Source of the DNA: Yoonia sp.
GTDB lineage: Bacteria > Pseudomonadota > Alphaproteobacteria > Rhodobacterales > Rhodobacteraceae
Length of the DNA stretch: 64,000 nucleotides
Direction of reading: 5' to 3'
Assembly: GCF_014859355.1 (NCBI RefSeq)
Contig: NZ_JACUUJ010000001.1
Span: forward strand, 62,001 to 126,000
The notes under the pieces: generated by a model
The model's input: only the letters and a program-made list of their open reading frames with translations
Database searches by the model: none
Told to the model about the DNA's origin: nothing
Position numbers and translations under genes: made by a program
Shown: positions 4,603 through 51,673 of the stretch, in pieces
How the letters are laid out: each line of letters begins with the position of its first letter
Position numbering within the stretch: the stretch's first letter is position 1

Positions 4603-4693
4603 GGTGCAATGTCCGGGCTGGATTTCGGGGCAGGGGTCGCATACCCATGCCAGACAGACCCGTCAACTTCAACTGCTCGCAAAGGTTTTGATA

Positions 4694-5374
4694 ATGCAGC
4701 CTGAACGCGCCCTGAATGTCATTCCCCCGGTGGTGATCGCCCTGACCCTGCTGATCCTCGGGGTCGAAGGCCTGCTGCAATTGGCCGATGCCGGGTTTAT
4801 CGGTGGCCCGCAAGGCGTGGGCTGGCGGCTGGCGGCGATACAGGAATACGGGTTTTCGTCGCGCGTGTTTGACCGCGTGGTGATGCAGGGCGATCTGTCG
4901 TTTGACCTGCTCAAGCGGTTTGTGACCTATCCCTATGTCAATGGCCAGCTGACGCAGGTGGCGTTTTGTGCCGCGCTGACGCTGGCGCTGGGTAAATTCA
5001 CCGGTGAATATTACGGCGGCGCACGGGTGCTGGTAGTTTATGTGGCATCAACCATCTTTGGCGCGATTGCCTTTGGCCTGCTGGCCAGCGGAAACTATCC
5101 GCTGTTTGGCGGCTTTACCCCGGTTTACGGGCTGATCGGGGCCTATACCTATGCGCTGTGGTTACAGCAGGCACAGGCGGGCGAAAACCAGTTGCTGGCG
5201 TTTCGGCTGATCGGGTTCTTGCTGGGGATCCAGTTGGTCTTTGGCTTGATCTTTGGCAGCACCCCCGCGTGGATCGCGGAACTGGCCGGTTTTGTGGCGG
5301 GGTTCGGCCTGTCGGTGCTGTTGGCACCGGGGGGCTGGGCGTCCTTTGTCAGCCGGATGCGTCAGCGGCCCTGA
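4694..5374 (+). CDS. Rhomboid-fold membrane protein lacking the catalytic dyad
   Basis: Integral inner-membrane protein of 226 residues with about six hydrophobic segments arranged as in bacterial rhomboids (S54). The TM4 region PLFGGFTPVYGLIGAY aligns with the rhomboid GxSG motif, but the nucleophile Ser position is Phe141, and the TM6 partner His position in WIAELAGFVAG is Glu196. The His and Asn residues usual near TM2 are absent too. It is therefore predicted to be a non-proteolytic rhomboid relative. The start was taken at the ATG at 4694, directly before the first membrane segment; upstream in-frame codons are not hydrophobic. Its last 13 bases overlap the end of murJ on the other strand. 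Confidence 0.75.
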   Translation: MQPERALNVIPPVVIALTLLILGVEGLLQLADAGFIGGPQGVGWRLAAIQEYGFSSRVFDRVVMQGDLSFDLLKRFVTYPYVNGQLTQVAFCAALTLALGKFTGEYYGGARVLVVYVASTIFGAIAFGLLASGNYPLFGGFTPVYGLIGAYTYALWLQQAQAGENQLLAFRLIGFLLGIQLVFGLIFGSTPAWIAELAGFVAGFGLSVLLAPGGWASFVSRMRQRP

Positions 5375-42921: not shown

Positions 42922-43326
42922 ATGGGACGGATTTTTGCAGCGGTTTTCGGGCTTTTCCTGACGGTGATGCCCGTCCTGGCGCAGGATGCACGCGCCATCG
43001 AAAATGTGATCGGCAGCCAGCTAGAGGCGTTCAATGACCGCGATGTGGCGCAGGCCTGGACCTATGCCAGCCCCAATATTCAGCGCCTGTTTGGTGATCC
43101 GGGCAATTTTGGCATGATGGTGCAGCGCGGGTATCCCATGGTGTGGGATAATGCCGATGTGCGGTATCTGGACCTGCGCAAGATTGCGGGCAACCTGTGG
43201 CAAAAGGTGATGATCCGCGATGCCAACGGTGGCTTGCACCTGCTGGATTACCAGATGATAGAAACCGAAAATGGCTGGCAAATCAATGGTGTGCAATTAT
43301 TGCCTGCGCCAGATGTGGGGGCCTGA
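42922..43326 (+). CDS. Exported DUF4864 protein
   Basis: 134 residues with a Sec signal peptide (about residues 1-20, ending PVLAQD). The mature part is a small alpha/beta NTF2-like domain: IENVIGSQLEAFNDRDVAQA, then WTYASPNIQRLFGDPGNFGM, matching DUF4864. Function unknown; periplasmic. Preceded by AGGAGA. A REP-like palindrome begins three bases after the stop. Confidence 0.85.
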   Translation: MGRIFAAVFGLFLTVMPVLAQDARAIENVIGSQLEAFNDRDVAQAWTYASPNIQRLFGDPGNFGMMVQRGYPMVWDNADVRYLDLRKIAGNLWQKVMIRDANGGLHLLDYQMIETENGWQINGVQLLPAPDVGA

Positions 43327-43328
43327 AG

Positions 43329-43354
43329 GTAGGGCGGGTTGAAACCCACCCTAC
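43329..43354. repeat. REP-like palindrome after the DUF4864 gene
   Basis: GTAGGGCGGGTT (43329-43340) pairs with 43343-43354 over 12 positions with one C-A mismatch. A near copy of its right half (18 of 19 bases) lies at 37801-37819. The form (GC-rich, intergenic, directly after a stop) is that of repetitive extragenic palindromes common in roseobacters. It may also protect the mRNA 3' end. Confidence 0.65.
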
Positions 43355-43366
43355 GTGTTGCGTCGG

Positions 43367-43381
43367 GCACCGTGACGGTGC
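43367..43381. repeat. Short hairpin GCACCG/CGGTGC
   Basis: Perfect 6-bp stem with a 3-base loop just after the REP-like palindrome. No T run follows directly; it may assist termination of the DUF4864 transcript. Confidence 0.4.
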
Positions 43382-43411
43382 TGTCAGGCTGAATTCAGGC
43401 TTTTGATCTAT

Positions 43412-43446
43412 CCCTTTGGCCAGCGACGTATCTGGCTGCCAAAGGG
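43412..43446 (+). promoter_or_regulatory. Leader hairpin that would mask the ribosome-binding site of the beta-helix gene
   Basis: CCCTTTGGC (43412-43420) is the exact complement of 43438-43446, and the inner CAG (43421-43423) can pair with CTG (43432-43434). The right arm contains the Shine-Dalgarno AAAGGGG (43441-43447), seven bases before the ATG at 43455. In the folded form the ribosome-binding site is paired, suggesting translational control. Confidence 0.55.
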
Positions 43447-43454
43447 GTTTATGC

Positions 43455-45746
43455 ATGAACAAGGCGATTACAGACGGGATAGTTTTCAACCCATTGCCCT
43501 TTGCGGCGGGTTTGGGGGTGTGGTCCAGCGGCGATGGCACGCCGGGGTCTGACACCTATGCGGTCAGCGGGTCGGGTGTTTTTGTCGCTGCCGATGCGGA
43601 TTTTGCGGGTTGCCTTGAGGTGCTGAAAACAGCCCCTGTGGCGCGGGTGCGGTATATGGGCGAAACGCCGATCCTGCCGGGGTGCTACCTGCGGGTAACG
43701 GCGCGGGTCAAGGCGGTGTCCGGCCCCTTGCCCGCTGTGCGGGTTTCGGGCTGGGCCGGTCTGGCCGGGGGTGCGCCTGCGACAGGGTTGCCCGTTTCCG
43801 GGCCGTCGGTGCAACTGACCACCTATGGTGCCGTGGTCACGGTGACTGCCATTATCGGCACCGGCGATCGCAACGGGGTGGATCTGCTGTGGACGGGGGC
43901 ACATTATGGGCATTTGGGGATTGATCTGACCGGCCCCACAGGCGGGGTTGTCCGGGTTGATGACATCGTGATCGAAGATGTTACAGCGGTCTTCACCCGC
44001 GATCTGATCGCGCTGGTCGATGTGCGCGATTACGGGGCCAAGGGCGATGGCATCACCGACGATTCCGACGCGTTCGAGGCCGCAGATGCCGCGGCTGACG
44101 GGCGCACGGTGATGGTGCCTGAAGGCACCTATCTGTTGGAAAACAGTGTGACGATGGAAAACCGTGTCCGGTTTGAAGGGGCGGTTGTGCAGGCCCCGCA
44201 GCATCGTTTTATTCTGCAACGCGATTATCACTATGAAAGCTATCTGGATGCTTTCAAGGACGAAGAGGTTGCCTTTAAAAAGGCATTTCAGGCCCTCATA
44301 AATTTTTCGGATCATGAATCGCTGGATCTGAGGGGGCGGCGGATATCGCTGCGCGCGCCGGTGGACATGCAGGCCAGTGACCCGTCGCGCGACCGGTTTG
44401 AAACCCGCCGGGTCATTCGGAACGGGCAGTTCCAGCCTGTTGAAGGTCCAGCGTGGGATGTCACGGTCGTGACGTCACAGGCCACCTATGCGGCCTCTGA
44501 CGACAGGATGCTGACCAATGTGGTGGAAATCGCCAATATTCCCATGGGATCATTGGTGCAGGGCAACGGCGTGGGCCGCGAGGTTTACGTTAAATCGGTC
44601 GATGTTGCGAACCAGACGCTGGAATTGAGCCAGCCCCTGTATGATGCGGAAGGGACGCAGGTGTTTACCTTTACCCGGTTCAAATACCTGCTGGATTTTT
44701 CCGGCTTCCAAAAGCTGAGCCAGTTTGTGCTGGACGATATCGAGTTTCAGGGCAGCAATATCGCCAGCGGGATCATGATGGCACCAGAGGGGCTTACCTT
44801 TCATCTGCGGGATTGTTTTATCAATAAGCCTAAGGATCGCGGAATCACATCGCCGGGGTGGGGGTGTCAGGGGATGATGATCGACCGCTGCCAGTTGATT
44901 TCAAGTGAACAGGCGCTGCCGGTCAGCGCACGCGTCAGTATCGGTTTGAATACCAACGCAAATGACGTGAAAATCCGCGATAATCGTACAAGCCGGTTCC
45001 GGCATTTCTGCGTGCTGGCGGGCAACGCCAACCTGATTACGGGCAATCACTGGTTCCATGGCGATAACGAGGTGAACGGCGTGCGCATGGGGGGTGTTGT
45101 GATAACGTCACCCAACCCCAAAAGCGTTTTCACCGGCAATTACTGTGACAACAACTTTATCGAATGGACCAATGAACATTCTAGCGCACCCGCGTTGGGC
45201 CAGCAGTTTTCCTTTGGTGGGCTGACCATTACGGGGAATATTTTCACCACCAGCGACGTGGCTGAATGGGTGAATTTCATTGTGATCAAGCCCTATGGGC
45301 CGAACCATTACATCAACGGGTTTGCTGTGGTCGGGAATGTCTTTCGGTCAACCAATGGCCAGATTGACCGGGTGGAACATGTGGATACGACCTTTGCCGA
45401 TCTGGATTTCAGCCGCACGCGGGGGCTGCAGTTTACCGCAAATACGTTCCACAACATCAAGGAACCGGTGCAAAACCCTGCCTTTCTAAGCCATGATCAA
45501 GCGACAGCGGCGCCGACATGGGTAATGAACACCCGCACCTATCTGCCGTTTGGGGGGCGTGCGCGGTTTGTCGATGCCGTCATGCCAGAAGGCGCAATCA
45601 CCGATGCCGCCGGTCAGCGTGTGCATGATGCGCCATGGGCCGAAGGGCAGAAGGGCGCTGATCTGCGGTCGGTCCATCTGAACTGGCGTGTGCCTGTCAG
45701 GGGGCGGGTCCGTTATCAGGTGCGGATGGATACAGCCGATCTTTGA
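43455..45746 (+). CDS. Right-handed beta-helix protein of the pectate-lyase-3 / GH28-related type
   Basis: 763 residues. The N-terminal 190 residues form a beta-rich carbohydrate-binding-like region. Then VDVRDYGAKGDGITDDSDAF with TVMVPEGTYLLEN is the classic opening of pectate-lyase-3 beta helices, shared with phage tailspikes and exopolysaccharide depolymerases. The middle is a long series of Asn/Gly-rich turns (ITGNHWFHGDN, FTGNYCDNNFIEW, TITGNIFTTSD). No signal peptide is seen, so export, if any, needs another route. The start at 43455 follows AAAGGGG at 7 bases. It is framed by a leader hairpin and a terminator as a single-gene unit. The polymer it acts on is unknown. Confidence 0.82.
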   Translation: MNKAITDGIVFNPLPFAAGLGVWSSGDGTPGSDTYAVSGSGVFVAADADFAGCLEVLKTAPVARVRYMGETPILPGCYLRVTARVKAVSGPLPAVRVSGWAGLAGGAPATGLPVSGPSVQLTTYGAVVTVTAIIGTGDRNGVDLLWTGAHYGHLGIDLTGPTGGVVRVDDIVIEDVTAVFTRDLIALVDVRDYGAKGDGITDDSDAFEAADAAADGRTVMVPEGTYLLENSVTMENRVRFEGAVVQAPQHRFILQRDYHYESYLDAFKDEEVAFKKAFQALINFSDHESLDLRGRRISLRAPVDMQASDPSRDRFETRRVIRNGQFQPVEGPAWDVTVVTSQATYAASDDRMLTNVVEIANIPMGSLVQGNGVGREVYVKSVDVANQTLELSQPLYDAEGTQVFTFTRFKYLLDFSGFQKLSQFVLDDIEFQGSNIASGIMMAPEGLTFHLRDCFINKPKDRGITSPGWGCQGMMIDRCQLISSEQALPVSARVSIGLNTNANDVKIRDNRTSRFRHFCVLAGNANLITGNHWFHGDNEVNGVRMGGVVITSPNPKSVFTGNYCDNNFIEWTNEHSSAPALGQQFSFGGLTITGNIFTTSDVAEWVNFIVIKPYGPNHYINGFAVVGNVFRSTNGQIDRVEHVDTTFADLDFSRTRGLQFTANTFHNIKEPVQNPAFLSHDQATAAPTWVMNTRTYLPFGGRARFVDAVMPEGAITDAAGQRVHDAPWAEGQKGADLRSVHLNWRVPVRGRVRYQVRMDTADL

Positions 45747-45761
45747 CGCTTCAGGATATCG

Positions 45762-45785
45762 GGGGTGCCTTCGGGCGCCCCTTTT
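45762..45785 (+). terminator. Rho-independent terminator of the beta-helix gene
   Basis: GGGGTGCC (45762-45769) pairs with GGCGCCCC (45774-45781) around a TTCG tetraloop, with one T-G wobble, and TTTTCTT follows. It lies 15 bases past the stop codon. Confidence 0.8.
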
Positions 45786-45789
45786 CTTG

Positions 45790-46281
45790 TGCGCTTAAAC
45801 TATAAGCACCTTGCCCCTGTTTTTCCGGCTTGTCCGGTGCGCTCGGCCCCGCGCGCCGAAGGGGCGCTTTTGCTTTCGGCCAAGCGGCGTGGCGCGGGGA
45901 CTGTTATTGCCGATTTGCGGCAATCAGGGCCAATGAAGGCCCTGTTTCCGCAGGTTCGCGGTGACGCGCTGCAAGCGGTTTTTCTGAACGCGGCAGGCGG
46001 GTTGACCGGTGGCGACAAAATGCAGATCGACATCAGCACCGCGCTGGGCGCACACATTGTGGTTGCGTCGCAAGCGGCAGAGCGTGCCTATCGTGCGCAG
46101 CCCGGCCAGATTGCACAGGTGACCGTGACGCTGGATGCACGGTCGGGCGGGCGGATCGACTGGCTGCCGCAGGAAACCATTCTGTTCTAGGCCACGGCGC
46201 TGGACCGCCGCCTGATCGTGCATCTGGCCGCCGATGCGACCGCCCTGCTGGTCAAGCCGGTGATTTTCGGGTCGTGCCGCG
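45790..46281 (+). pseudogene. ureD: ureD remnant: urease accessory protein, nonsense-interrupted and truncated
   Basis: From about 45850 the reading is unmistakably UreD: LLLSAKRRGAGTVIADLRQS, GDALQAVFLNAAGGLTGGD, SQAAERAYRAQPGQIAQVT and GRIDWLPQETILF. A TAG at 46188-46190 then interrupts the frame. The same frame continues afterwards with the next UreD segment ([25 protein letters not shown]), so this is a point lesion inside a once longer gene. Near 46280 UreD similarity stops and UreC begins in another frame. The open frame from a GTG at 45765 starts inside the upstream terminator, so it is not a credible start. About 110 C-terminal residues of UreD are missing. Confidence 0.9.
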
Positions 46282-46887
46282 ATGGTCGAGGTGATGATCC
46301 GCACGCGGCAGACCGCGCACAAGATGAAGGTGCAGCGCGGCGCGCTGGCGGGCGAGGCGGGGGATAATGATAACCTGCGCGTGCGCCGCTATATTGCGAA
46401 ATACACGATCAACCCGGCAATTGCGCATGACATTTCCGCGCATGTCGGATCAGTCGAGCTGGGCAAGCGCGCTGATCTGGTAATGTGGGACACGGCCTTT
46501 TTGGGTGTCAAACCCGAAATGGTCCTGATGGGGGGCACGATTGTCTGTGCCCAGATGGGTGACCCGAATGCGTCGATCCCCACGCCGCAGCCGGTTTATA
46601 CGCGGCCCATGTTCGGGGCTTACGGGCGGTCGGTTGAACAGTCTTCGGTGACATTTGCCAGTGCCGCCGGGCAGGATGCCACGATCGGGAATGCGCTGGC
46701 GCTGGCCAAGCGGACTTTGCCGGTGGTCAACACGCGCGGGATCGGCAAGACCGATCCGAAGCTGAAGAATGCCATACCCCATATCGAGGTGAACCCCGAA
46801 ACCTATGAAGTGCGCGCCGATGGTGAACTTCGGACCTGTGAACCGGCCGCTGTTTTGCCCATGGCGCAGCGGTATTTCCTATTTTGA
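46282..46887 (+). pseudogene. ureC: ureC remnant: C-terminal third of urease alpha subunit
   Basis: 201 codons corresponding to the end of Ure[61 protein letters not shown] and a perfect UreC terminus ([15 protein letters not shown]). The complete protein has about 570 residues. The missing part holds every nickel ligand, the carbamylated lysine and the active-site Cys/His flap, so no urease activity is possible. The normally conserved Trp in IRTWQTA is Arg here. It is preceded directly by UreD-derived sequence, so ureA, ureB and most of ureC were lost in one deletion or in several. The open frame could still yield a non-functional peptide. Confidence 0.92.
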
Positions 46888-47003
46888 AACCCCGCAGGTT
46901 TGCATCGCTTGCAAGCCGGTGCGGCGCAAATGGACGTTGTGGAAAATGAAGGCGGATAGCATATCGACGGCAGGGAGGAACAGTCTAATCAAAGAGGCGT
47001 TCC

Positions 47004-47231
47004 ATGGCTTATCAAGCAGACAACACACTGATCACAAACCGCGAAATGCTGGGCGCCTTGGTTGCGCGTCCTTTCGTGGCCGTTTTCGAATTCCTGATCG
47101 CGCTTGCCGAGGCAAACCCGACGGCGCGTCAGTTGCAAACGCTCAGCGAAACGAGCGATGCGGCCCTTGCAACCCGGGGTTTGACCCGACAGGGCGAAAT
47201 CGCCAGGATCATGGGCGGGTCTTACATGTAA
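47004..47231 (+). CDS. Small DUF1127-like protein inside the urease remnant
   Basis: 75 residues. The C-terminal part (ARQLQTLSETSDAALATRGL then TRQGEIARIMG) resembles the DUF1127 pattern of a helix with a Leu-rich stretch followed by a conserved RGLTR-like turn. DUF1127 proteins are small, often Arg-rich, and in some bacteria influence RNA turnover or phosphate and carbon metabolism. The ATG at 47004 has AGAGG 8 bases upstream. It is uninterrupted although flanked by ureC and ureE fragments, so it may be an independent functional gene. Confidence 0.6.
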   Translation: MAYQADNTLITNREMLGALVARPFVAVFEFLIALAEANPTARQLQTLSETSDAALATRGLTRQGEIARIMGGSYM

Positions 47232-47282
47232 TTTCGGGCAGGGCGACCTGATGGGCACCCTGCCAATCGCTTACCGCATGTA

Positions 47283-47510
47283 AATCATGCTGCGGCCGAT
47301 GACCAAGTTGCTTTGGCTTGTGATGCGCGCCTGTTGTGGCTGGCATGGCATGTGGGCAACCGGCACGTGCCCTGTGCCGTCGCGGCTGATGCGTTGATCT
47401 TGCAACGCGAAAAGGTGATGCGCGCCATGCTGGAACAGTTGGGCGCCACGGTCACGGATTTTGACGGGACGTTCACCCTCGAAGGTGGTGCATATGGACC
47501 TGCCCGATAT
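47283..47510 (+). pseudogene. ureE: ureE remnant: urease nickel metallochaperone fragment
   Basis: The frame reads CDARLLWLAWHVGNRHVPCA, then VMRAMLEQLGATVTDFDGTF and LEGGAYG. The His of GNRH and the EGGAYG segment are UreE landmarks. The N-terminal peptide-binding domain (about the first 70 residues) is missing; no start codon or ribosome-binding site precedes the fragment. The His-rich nickel tail is also not seen. The sequence passes straight into UreF-like sequence in another frame, with the linking part deleted. Confidence 0.85.
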
Positions 47511-47805
47511 GGCCTATCCTGTGGCCGTGAGGCGGGCCGCCGGGTTGGTTGGCCTGCCTGTTGTGCCAACTGCGCAGGTGTGGTTGCAAGGCTTTGCCAG
47601 CAATCTGGTGCAGTCAGCACAGCGCCTGATGCCTGTGGGGCAAACGGCAGGGCAGCGTATTTTGGCGGGCCTTACACCAGTGTGCGGGGCGATGGGGGAA
47701 ATGGCTGCACGGGTCGCGCTGGATGATATCGGGTCGGCAACCTTAGCGGTTGATGTCGTATCCATGCAGCATGAAATGCAATATTCGCGTATCTTCAGAT
47801 CATGA
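47494..47805 (+). pseudogene. ureF: ureF remnant: C-terminal half of urease accessory protein UreF
   Basis: Reads AYPVAVRRAAGLVGLPVVPT, FASNLVQSAQRLMPVGQTAG, QRILAGLTPVC and ends with the typical UreF tail [17 protein letters not shown]. Only the last 100 of roughly 210 residues remain. The N-terminal half, including the early helices that contact UreD and UreG, is lost together with the end of ureE. The stop overlaps the ATG of the intact DUF3995 gene (ATGA), an arrangement that must date from the working operon. Confidence 0.9.
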
Positions 47806-48212
47806 TGATTCTTGCTCTTCTTCTGTCGGTTGTTCTGGGCGTGGTGGCGGTGATCCATGCGGCGTGGGGGTTTGGCATCTGGGTGCCGATCCGCAACGAA
47901 GATGCCTTGGTCCGTGCTGCAGTGGGGGCCGCAGGCGTGACACGTATGCCAGGGCCGATCCCTTGTTTTCTGGTGGTTGCGGGGCTGTTGGTCGTGCTTG
48001 GCGCGATCTGGATGCAAAGCGGGGTTTTGCGCGGTATCGTTTTATGGGCGGCGGCGGTTGTGTTTCTGGGGCGCGGGGCGATGGCCTATGCAAGGTTCTG
48101 GCGCAAGATGGCGCCAGTCGAACCCTTTGCCACCTATGACCGCCGTTATTATGGCCCGCTGAGCCTTGTTGTAGGGGTCGGGCTTTTGGTCATCGTTTCA
48201 GGGGGGTTTTGA
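47802..48212 (+). CDS. DUF3995 membrane protein, intact within the decayed urease operon
   Basis: 136 residues with four hydrophobic helices; DUF3995-type. It opens with a helix leading to [20 protein letters not shown], a typical start of the family, and contains [20 protein letters not shown] before the last helix. Its start overlaps the ureF remnant stop (ATGA) and its stop overlaps the ureG remnant start (TTGA). The gene has no lesions although its neighbours are dead. Function unknown; the former urease linkage suggests a role in urea or nickel handling, which is inference. Confidence 0.8.
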
Positions 48213-48807
48213 TTTCACCGCATGGACCCTTGCGCGTTGGTATTGGTGGCCCTGTCGGGGCGGGTAAGACAACGCTGACAGCCGCGCTGGCCCGCGCGCG
48301 ATGACATCAGCCTTGGGGTGATCACGAATGATATCTACACGCAGGAAGACGCCGAAGCCCTGATGCGGATGCAGACCCTGCCTGCGGATCGGGTGATAGG
48401 CGAGGAAACGGGCGGCTGTCCGCATACAGCAATCGGCTAAGATGCATCGATCAATCAGGCTGCCGTGGCCGAAATGCGCGCGCTCCACGATGATCTGGCG
48501 CTGATCCTGATCGAAAGCGGTGGCGACAACCAGTCGGCAACCTTTAGCCCGGAACTGGCCGATGTGACGATCTATGTGATCGACGTGGCCGCCGGAGAGG
48601 AAATACCCCGCAAGGGCGGCCCGGCGATTACTCGGTCGGACATTCTGGTGATCAACAAGACCGACCTGGCCCCGCATGTCGGGGCCTCGCTGGATGTGAT
48701 GGCGCGCGATGCAGGGTGATTTGCAGGTGGTTTTTGCCGGCCTGCGGCAGGCTGAAGGTGTCGCTGACGTGACCTGCGTGTTGCGCGAAATTGGCGGGCT
48801 TCAGTAG
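48209..48807 (+). pseudogene. ureG: ureG remnant: urease GTPase with frameshifts and a nonsense codon
   Basis: The first frame reads [20 protein letters not shown], including an intact Walker A, then hits a stop after ALARAR. In a second frame it resumes [20 protein letters not shown] and [15 protein letters not shown], with an in-frame TAA at 48438-48440 followed by [35 protein letters not shown] and [15 protein letters not shown]. After MARDA a third frame gives DLQVVFAGLRQAEGV to the end at 48807. So there are at least two frame changes and one nonsense codon, plus small deletions. The 3' end overlaps the barrel-protein gene on the other strand. Confidence 0.92.
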
Positions 48808-49487
48808 GTCGTCCAAAGATCCAGTTTGATGGCGGCGCCGTGATCGCCGGTTATCCCCTGAATCCAGCCCAGATTGACGCGGTAACGGTCCGTGATGGCA
48901 TAGCTGACGGATGCCGCTGTCTTGGCGTAATAATCATCCCTATAGCCTTGGCCGGTTTGCAACTGCGCAATCGTTGCCCAGCGATCATTGATGTTGTAAC
49001 CCCATGTCATGTCGACCTTGGGCCGAAACACGGTGTCGATGGTGGCATATGTGGCGGTGGCCTCGATTGTCAGCCAACCAGTGTCCAACCCCCGCCCCCA
49101 TGCCAGCCCGCCACGCAGCAGCGTTTCTGCCGGGTGATGGGCATCGACCCGCGCGCCATAGGCCAGACTGGCCGCCAGCCTGTCGCGCCCGGTGTTGTCC
49201 AGCAAGGGAAAGCTGGCAAAGACAAACCCGGTGTGAATGCGGCCCCGGTCAGCGGTGTGATAATCAATCCCGACAGTGACCCGCGGGGTCAGCCCATATT
49301 CGACATAGGCAGTCGGGTCATAATGCACCGGCAGTTCGGACCCGTCCGACAAAAACAGGTTGCTGCCCGTAGCGATGAACCACTGGCCGGTTTCGCGCGG
49401 CCATGGCCCGCCGTAGGCCGGCAGTGCAAGCGCCAGCAGACACCATGAAATGACGATTGCACGCACGACACGACCTTTACTAAGCAT
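48801..49487 (-). CDS. Outer-membrane beta-barrel protein of unknown function
   Basis: 228 residues. Signal peptide about 1-26 (VVRAIVISWCLLALALPAYG). The mature part shows alternating amphipathic strands, many aromatic residues at strand ends (YVEYGLTPRVTVGIDYH, MTWGYNINDRWATIAQLQ, VSYAITDRYRVNLGWIQGI) and a final strand ending in an aromatic residue (KLDLWTTY), which together suggest a small outer-membrane barrel of eight to twelve strands. No named family recognised. Its last seven bases overlap the ureG remnant convergently. Confidence 0.75.
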   Translation of the reverse strand: MLSKGRVVRAIVISWCLLALALPAYGGPWPRETGQWFIATGSNLFLSDGSELPVHYDPTAYVEYGLTPRVTVGIDYHTADRGRIHTGFVFASFPLLDNTGRDRLAASLAYGARVDAHHPAETLLRGGLAWGRGLDTGWLTIEATATYATIDTVFRPKVDMTWGYNINDRWATIAQLQTGQGYRDDYYAKTAASVSYAITDRYRVNLGWIQGITGDHGAAIKLDLWTTY

Positions 49488-49711
49488 CGGCAGTTTGCGC
49501 AGAAAGGGTTAAGGACAGGTTAAGATCAACGGCGGCAGAAATCTGGATTGTCAAATAATTTACAAAATTACTGCAGGCTGGTTGTGAAGATTGACAAAAC
49601 CCATGCTGGCGCTTTCGGGCGACTTGGATTCTTTTTCAATCTGCTCATGATGCACACTGAGGCGGCAGCGGCACGTGTCCGCGCCGAAAAACCAAGCACA
49701 AGGGGGGAGAT

Positions 49712-51673
49712 ATGATGACTGAACAGACACCCGCACTTTATCCGCCGTCGACCGCGTTTGCGAAAAATGCCCATGTCGACAAGGCCAAATATGAAGAAAT
49801 GTATGCGGCATCCGTGTCAGACCCCGCCGCGTTCTGGGCCGAACATGGCAAGCGCGTCGATTGGATCAAGCCGTTTACAAAGGTCCAGAACGCCAGCTTT
49901 GCGCCCGGCAGTGTTGACATCAAATGGTTTGAAGACGGCACGCTGAACGTCGCCGCCAACTGTATTGACCGGCATCTTGCCACCCGTGGCGACCAGACAG
50001 CGATCATCTGGGAACCCGATGATCCGAACGATGATGCGCTGCACATCACCTATAACATGCTGGCCGAACAGGTTGGCATCATGGCGAACGTCATGAAAAA
50101 GCTGGGCGTCGGCAAGGGCGACCGGGTGGTCATCTATATGCCGATGATCCCCGAAGCAGCCTATGCCATGCTGGCTTGCGCCCGGATCGGGGCGATTCAT
50201 TCGATCGTGTTTGCGGGCTTTTCCCCCGATGCGCTGGGCGCGCGGGTCAATGGTTGCGATGCCAAACTGGTCGTCACGGCCGATCATGCCCCGCGCGGTG
50301 GCCGCAAGACCAAGCTGAAAGACAATGTGAACCAGGCCCTGTTGAATGACTTTGACGAGGTGAAATGCCTTGTTGTCAAACGCACAGGCGATCAGGTTGC
50401 GTGGCGTGAAAACCTTGATTTCTGGCTGCACGAAGAGGCGAAAACCGTCACCGCCGATTGCCCGCCTGCGGAAATGAACGCCGAAGACCCGCTGTTCATT
50501 CTTTACACATCAGGGTCTACCGGCCAGCCCAAGGGTGTGGTGCATACCACCGGTGGTTATCTGGTCTATGCGTCGATGACGCAGCAATACACCTTTGATT
50601 ATCACGATGGCGATGTGTTCTGGTGCACCGCAGATGTGGGTTGGGTGACCGGCCACAGCTATATCGTTTATGGCCCGCTGGCCAATGGCGCGACCACGGT
50701 GATGTTCGAAGGGGTGCCAACCTACCCCGATGCGGGCCGGTTCTGGCAGGTGTGTGAAAAGCACAAGGTGAACCAGTTTTACACCGCCCCTACTGCCATT
50801 CGGGCGCTGATGGCGCAGGGCAACAGCTTTGTCGAAAAATACGATCTGTCCGATCTCAAGGTGCTGGGCACCGTGGGTGAACCGATCAACCCCGAGGCAT
50901 GGAACTGGTATAACGACGTGGTTGGCAAGGGGAATGTGCCCATCGTTGACACATGGTGGCAGACCGAAACGGGGGGGCATCTGTTAACCCCGCTGCCCGG
51001 CGCGACGGCGACAAAACCCGGGTCTGCGACGCTACCGTTCTTTGGCATCCAGCCTGTGATCCTGGAGCCGACCACCGGCGAGGAAATCACCGATACGGTC
51101 GCCGAAGGTGTCTTGTGCATCAAGAACAGCTGGCCGGGCCAGATGCGCACCGTCTGGGGCGACCATGACAGGTTTGAAAAAACCTATTTCGCGGATTACA
51201 AGAATTACTATTTTACTGGTGATGGCTGCCGCCGCGATGCTGATGGGTATTACTGGATTACGGGCCGCGTTGATGACGTGATCAACGTGTCCGGTCACCG
51301 CATGGGCACCGCCGAAGTTGAAAGCGCCCTGGTCGCACATGCCGCCGTCGCCGAAGCTGCGGTTGTCGGTTATCCACATCCTATCAAGGGGCAGGGCATT
51401 TACGCCTATGTCACCCTGATGAATGGTGAAACGCCAACGGATGATTTGCGCAAGGAACTGGAAGCCTTTGTGCGGACGGAAATTGGCCCGATTGCCAAAC
51501 CTGACCTGATCCAATGGGCACCGGGCCTGCCCAAGACGCGGTCGGGCAAGATCATGCGCCGCATCCTGCGAAAGATCGCCGAGGATGATTTCGGTGCGCT
51601 GGGCGATATATCGACCCTTGCCGATCCGTCCGTCGTGGACGATCTGATCGAAAACCGGATGAACCGCGGCTAA
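49712..51673 (+). CDS. acs: Acetyl-CoA synthetase (AMP-forming)
   Basis: Converts acetate, ATP and CoA to acetyl-CoA via acetyl-AMP. About 653 residues, full length. The N-terminal ACS domain is followed by the phosphate-binding loop [19 protein letters not shown], the aryl/acetate pocket ([17 protein letters not shown]), the hinge [20 protein letters not shown], and the C-terminal lysine motif [16 protein letters not shown], the site that is regulated by acetylation in relatives. A run AGGGGGGAG precedes; the spacing favours the second ATG (49715) slightly over 49712. A strong terminator follows. Confidence 0.97.

Follow-up and report, generated by a model that had tools for sequence, protein, structure and literature searches.

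A decayed urease operon in Yoonia and the repeated sparing of its interleaved genes

Membership of an operon is commonly read as a sign that a gene serves the pathway of that operon. What becomes of such genes when the pathway is lost is the question raised by 45.8-48.8 kb of the window, which here means the whole stretch of 64,000 nucleotides of Yoonia sp. that was analysed. This interval is a decayed urease operon with remnants of ureD, ureC, ureE, ureF and ureG in the ancestral order, and two small genes stand intact among them. The genome of the window is called G000 (2.98 Mb in 99 contigs, 99.7% complete), and other G and L numbers denote genomes and loci of relatives in this analysis. 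The locus consists of the following features.

43416-45746, plus strand: upstream flank, intact gene for a 776-aa pectate-lyase-like protein (PF12708, 1e-11), which marks the ancestral site
45807-46286, plus strand: ureD pseudogene, about aa 31-185 of 304 (profile and alignments with relatives)
46276-46293, no strand: junction of a deletion of about 2.3 kb, where the flanking matches overlap by several bases (microhomology-like)
46288-46887, plus strand: ureC C-terminal fragment, aa 371-569, in frame but without its native start (profile and alignments)
47004-47231, plus strand: DUF1127-like small gene, 75 aa, intact, interleaved (homology to operon proteins of relatives)
47295-47507, plus strand: ureE fragment, aa 69-139 of 151 (profile and alignments)
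47485-47805, plus strand: ureF C-terminal fragment, aa 131-236, fused to the ureE fragment (profile and alignments)
47802-48212, plus strand: DUF3995 gene, 136 aa, intact, interleaved (PF13160, 3.8e-11)
48212-48807, plus strand: ureG pseudogene (profile and alignments)
48801-49487, minus strand: downstream flank, intact gene for a 228-aa protein without a Pfam or NCBIfam match, found in the same place in many relatives
49712-51673, plus strand: downstream flank, intact acetyl-CoA synthetase-like gene (acs, named by eye), syntenic in most relatives

A profile search of the window matched the remnants of UreD (PF01774, 1.6e-17), the UreC C-terminus (TIGR01792, 3.7e-80, model positions 370-568 of 568), UreE_C (PF05194, 2.6e-18), the UreF C-terminus (PF01730, 2.2e-13) and UreG (TIGR00101, 1e-38). 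Aligned with the intact relative G033, the pieces cover UreD aa 31-185 of 304, UreC 371-569 of 569, UreE 69-139 of 151, UreF 131-236 of 236 and UreG 1-202, the last split over three matches. Gene order and flanks are those of intact relatives, which fits a pseudogene remnant of the ancestral operon. The first-pass annotation had named five broken ure genes in ancestral order, and profiles and alignments agree with it; the two intact reading frames inside the interval were, however, missing from its inventory.

Lesions were called from alignments with five intact relatives for each gene, six relatives overall, and eleven were found. In ureD, the 5' end is gone and the start with it, a +1 frameshift lies near 46269, and the nonsense codon noted earlier is a TAG at 46188-46190. 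The reported loss of ureA, ureB and two thirds of ureC is due to the single deletion of about 2.3 kb with its junction at 46276-46293, which took the 3' end of ureD, both small genes and 65% of ureC (370 of 569 codons), including what we take to be the nickel ligands of urease. Both ureE and ureF are truncated at the 5' end as the first-pass annotation held, but ureE has lost its C-terminal end as well; it also carries a 1-base deletion near 47329, and a deletion of about 360 bases at about 47496 joins it to ureF. The start of ureG is changed from ATG to ATT (48212), and the frameshifts and nonsense codon described for this gene are a 5-base deletion at 48299, an 11-base deletion at 48708 and a TAA at 48438-48440. 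The locus does not qualify as a functional operon: ureA and ureB are gone, UreC aa 1-370 are absent, and ureD, ureE, ureF and ureG are truncated or frameshifted.

No second copy of the operon stretch was found as a DNA match elsewhere in G000, and searches of the genome gave no ureA or ureB and no intact UreC or UreG, the fragments at the locus being the only matches to the latter two. UrtA was not found in G000 at E 1e-60, and for urea carboxylase nothing exceeded the cut-off, with biotin-carboxylase-like and other partial matches only. A remnant of urtABCDE is present on another contig (G000:C30:84803-87874, minus strand, within region L196, G000:C30:82000-91000), recovered with the G033 operon, whose urt genes were named from a UrtA match and gene order. 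In this remnant urtA is frameshifted, lacks about 125 codons and has a stop, urtB lacks its first 422 residues, urtC has a deletion and a stop, urtD is unrecognisable save for a stretch that matches urtE better, and urtE is partial with a stop; the gene upstream matches over its length. The urt remnant adjoins an intact-looking hydrolase gene. Because no intact urease exists elsewhere and urtABCDE is also broken on an unlinked contig, urea uptake and hydrolysis are decaying together. The suggestion that urea is probably no longer used through this locus holds, with UreC and UreG present only as fragments, UrtA missing and the urt operon broken. Among 56 genomes of the genus, UrtA is absent in all 11 without an intact UreC and present in 43 of the 45 with UreC (exceptions G034 and G068); the Fisher p value of 5e-10 ignores kinship, and G001, G010 and G026 are less than 90% complete.

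The site can be followed in relatives through the pectate-lyase-like gene, which has a homologue in 55 of the 56 genomes, a few of these being split or broken. Intact sites have the order pectate-lyase-like gene, ureDAB, (Lys/Ala/Pro-rich gene), ureC, (DUF1127-like gene), (gene for a 198-aa protein), ureEF, (DUF3995 gene), ureG, often followed by the 228-aa gene on the minus strand and usually by acs. The genes in brackets are the interleaved ones, and their presence varies among intact sites. Urease is found at the site in 24 of the 55 genomes in the tree; of these 24 species, 21 have the DUF1127-like gene (six as partial matches), nine have DUF3995, and nine have the Lys/Ala/Pro-rich gene, which is not assessable in G069. 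Thirteen species have lost the urease of the site and have UreC elsewhere (G002-G004, G006, G009, G011, G015, G017, G019, G027, G060, G067 and G077), possibly as a replacement, and five have no intact UreC anywhere (G000, G024, G028, G035 and G074). In G067 (L092) the UreC elsewhere belongs to a compact ureDABCEFG operon that has no interleaved genes.

A wider tree, built on the pectate-lyase-like protein, has 81 loci, the window included. Besides the window, 24 have urease genes, 22 interleaved genes alone and 26 neither kind, and 8 are undetermined. Flavimaricola (L127) and a Rhodobacterales MAG (L144) share this site and carry interleaved arrays there, DUF3995 lying between ureF and ureG, and only interleaved genes occur at it in Alexandriicola (L147), Wenxinia saemankumensis (L161) and L140. 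Another Rhodobacterales MAG (L151, 12511-13957) has ureDAB beside the pectate-lyase-like gene and no ureC in the next 8 kb; this is either another decaying operon or a long insertion.

The DUF3995 protein scores 44.0 bits with PF13160 (cut-off 34.3) and belongs to that family. Its start codon overlaps the stop codon of ureF, so that its translation start lies in ureF, of which the last 106 codons in the window are still open up to that start. An AlphaFold2 model from a 22-sequence alignment is all helical with a mean pLDDT of 93.6; a fold search in the PDB gave no match at E 0.001, the best being VKOR at E 1.2. The gene is uncommon among genomes of the bacterial family (10 of 149, G000 included). 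For the DUF1127-like gene, the start and upstream region are conserved. Its product shares 52% identity over 62 aa with a G012 homologue encoded between ureC and ureE, which in turn shares 36% over 64 aa with a Leisingera operon protein annotated as DUF1127. PF06568 (DUF1127) matched neither the window protein nor two homologues of the genus, and the Leisingera homologue reached 15.9 bits against a cut-off of 23.3; DUF1127-like is therefore only a label. PhoR, a sensor kinase of Agrobacterium, is a binding partner of DUF1127 proteins (PMC12501420). The two proteins most likely have urease-independent roles, which for DUF3995 would be membrane-associated and for the DUF1127-like protein small and possibly regulatory.

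Two further companions occur in relatives, a Lys/Ala/Pro-rich protein with a conserved N-terminus and no Pfam match, encoded between ureB and ureC, and a 198-aa probably secreted protein.

L036, 5704-6507, reverse orientation: Lys/Ala/Pro-rich gene
L049, 7587-8192: Lys/Ala/Pro-rich gene
L055, about 4655-5307, reverse orientation: Lys/Ala/Pro-rich gene
L038, 8480-9076, reverse orientation: gene for the 198-aa protein, placed between ureC and ureE (also at L161, L140, L147 and L185)

The 198-aa protein is also found at urease-free sites of other genera, and beside DUF3995 in G224.

A tree of flanking proteins from 55 genomes (supports at the position of G000 are 64 and 82, i.e. weak) indicates five losses of urease from the site in clade B, whether or not the root had urease. 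These are G000 itself; G024, G027, G015 and G077, sister to the intact G012; G028, G074 and G035, sister to the intact G069; nine species around G002 (support 85), sister to the intact G076; and G067, sister to the intact G007. All 18 clade B species without an intact urease at the site retain two or three of the interleaved genes, still in ancestral order, and no ure genes were found at these sites at E 1e-3, the window excepted. In the whole tree, at least one interleaved gene is kept in 30 of the 31 tips without an intact urease at the site, and G026 keeps none. The Lys/Ala/Pro-rich gene survives in three of the four G012-sister species, in the nine-species clade and in G067. On the other hand, the nine-species loss is without DUF3995 although its sister has it, and the 198-aa gene was lost in the sister group of G012. 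Under random retention, a set made up of interleaved genes alone would be expected with a probability of 0.02-0.07 per loss, with a product of 3.5e-8 if the losses are independent. The interleaved genes are dispensable elsewhere, in that their presence varies at urease sites, G026 has none and 26 of the 81 loci have neither these genes nor urease.

Where urease has gone from the site, the interleaved genes are under purifying selection in three multi-species clade B losses, with dN/dS of about 0.1-0.3. The values in urease-free clades are 0.162 (3 species), 0.107 (4), 0.155 (9) and 0.186 (5) for the DUF1127-like gene and 0.104 (3), 0.087 (4) and 0.087 (7) for DUF3995. Those for the Lys/Ala/Pro-rich gene, 0.300 and 0.287, are rough because of its low-complexity tail, and the G024 row in the four-species alignment is probably a chance match, as no such gene was found at the G024 site. 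All reject a dN/dS of 1 (2dlnL 36-317), and acs as a control gives 0.02-0.06. Since G028, G074 and G035 lack both UreC and UrtA, the interleaved genes there are kept without a urea pathway.

The G000 branch was compared with the background by a codon branch test on an unrooted tree, with 2dlnL over 3.84 as significant. The dN/dS on the branch is 0.120 (background 0.044) for ureC, 0.221 (0.060) for ureE, 0.062 (0.027) for ureG, 0.183 (0.098) for ureF and 0.156 (0.104) for ureD. For the flanks it is 0.151 (0.070) for the pectate-lyase-like gene, 0.089 (0.051) for acs, 0.331 (0.100) for the 228-aa gene and 0.283 (0.121) for ORF141 (42922-43326), and for the interleaved genes, with few codons each, 0.152 (0.126) for DUF3995 (135 codons) and 0.242 (0.235) for the DUF1127-like gene (62 codons). 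The rise is significant for ureC, ureE, the pectate-lyase-like gene, acs and the 228-aa gene, and not for ureG, ureF, ureD, ORF141, DUF3995 or the DUF1127-like gene. The ure fragments, at 0.06-0.22 with a value of 1 rejected, were thus under constraint for most of the branch, and because they rise little more than their neighbours the decay appears to be young, in line with the recent loss proposed from the sequence. The intact flanks within 42922-51673 of the window all rise 1.7- to 3.3-fold on this branch. There is a hint of generally relaxed constraint in the G000 lineage.

Under plain neutral decay, the two small genes of the window might owe their intact state simply to small size and to the short time since decay began, and be the next to go. 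Within G000 the numbers allow this, for the ureC fragment is likewise stop-free over 199 codons, and with ure fragments also well below 1 and the flanks rising as described, dN/dS cannot separate neutral from selected genes. The other losses make it unlikely. Although ureA and ureB are of similar size (about 300 bases), they were not detected at the site in any loss, whereas none of the five clade B losses removed the DUF1127-like gene (about 225 bases), and DUF3995 (about 400 bases) outlasted three of the four in which the sister or the site itself shows it. The purifying selection on both genes in multi-species urease-free clades also speaks against it.

Further evidence comes from the bases before DUF3995, where up to 130 bases were compared with 300 first-order resamplings each. 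A scar of the UreF C-terminus directly precedes DUF3995 at six of seven urease-free loci (G024, G077, G015, G027, G074 and G028; p 0.003-0.010), the seventh, G035, giving 0.28. The six represent two losses and are not independent cases. Such scars are expected if ureF was deleted as far as a start region that is under selection. They are absent from six of seven clade A sites (G010 has p 0.007, out of position) and from the regions before the Lys/Ala/Pro-rich and DUF1127-like genes, save for an isolated p of 0.010 (G003). When all empty sites were searched at E 0.05, two weak UreF matches were obtained, and five triplet shuffles gave 0-2 each, so the scars are credible from the position-specific test and not from that search.

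It is far less probable that the interleaved genes are an older backbone around which urease was inserted piecewise, so that urease-free sites would be ancestral. This would suit clade A, where DUF3995 or the DUF1127-like gene occurs without urease at the site, and Fitch parsimony, which gives six changes with a urease-free root, so that clade A may never have had urease; Dollo parsimony gives seven losses with the halves of clade A counted apart and six with clade A as one. In clade B, however, urease-free groups are nested among urease-bearing ones, UreF scars precede DUF3995 at urease-free sites, other genera carry interleaved arrays at the same site, and in the window the opposite process is seen in progress. 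That the breaks are assembly or sequencing errors is hardly credible even in a draft of 99 contigs, given eleven lesions between intact flanks, the 2.3-kb deletion among them, and the decay of urt, an unlinked locus of this pathway.

The locus is very probably an orthologous Yoonia urease operon that was recently inactivated and is decaying around interleaved genes that urease does not need, with the urt operon decaying alongside. The ancestral operon would have been interleaved with such genes, and urea use would no longer be selected. The ure genes would then erode, and the deletions that survive would be those leaving the interleaved genes untouched, together with, for DUF3995, the 3' end of ureF in which its translation start is embedded. 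Removal would proceed by successive deletions and point lesions, with the unlinked transporter operon going too, towards the end state of the sister lineages, the same site with interleaved genes only. We infer that in G000 itself deletions hitting the interleaved genes are selected against.

More tentatively, and with considerable doubt, the Lys/Ala/Pro-rich, DUF1127-like, 198-aa and DUF3995 genes might form a functional set of their own, with the urease operon as its transcriptional home and a selected residual locus in species without urea use. If so, repeated urease loss in Yoonia unmasks a compact residual locus. Within one clade, nature has in effect carried out a deletion experiment about five times, parting the urease genes from mere residents. 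Position in the operon is therefore not enough to annotate DUF3995 and its neighbours as urease accessory genes. The window itself shows a two-locus pathway of uptake and hydrolysis caught in the middle of its loss in a mostly marine genus.

A literature search on DUF3995 gave no paper, and neither the locus nor the retention pattern is described in the available parts of PMC12661815, PMC10675870, PMC4886054, PMC11482539 and PMC6951406 or in the other literature found, mostly titles and the beginnings of abstracts. All seven Yoonia strains in a table of PMC11482539 have urease activity, suggesting that urease is the usual state of tested Yoonia type strains. The operons of the genus beside the pectate-lyase-like gene (G033, G012, G076 and others; Yoonia tamlensis, Y. 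litorea and Y. sediminilitoris) share site, order and flanks with G000 but differ in that all seven ure genes are matched over their full or nearly full length; some also carry the Lys/Ala/Pro-rich gene or that of the 198-aa probably secreted protein. A plasmid of Leisingera methylohalidivorans (NC_023146) has the same order, ureDABC-(DUF1127)-EFG, with the DUF1127 gene between ureC and ureE. In contrast to G000, its genes are annotated as whole, DUF3995 is missing and the operon is plasmid-borne. In the Roseobacter clusters AAPR and AAR, urea transporter and urease are both absent, just as both are decaying in G000; in the accessible text of PMC12661815 this absence is drawn from gene content and no remnants are described, whereas G000 has remnants. 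Streptococcus thermophilus has also lost a urease operon, by one deletion of the complete operon according to the title of a reference in PMC6951406, whereas the decay in G000 is piecewise and the interleaved genes are repeatedly spared. The loss of urease is of a known kind; what is new is that interleaved genes are spared in one loss after another.
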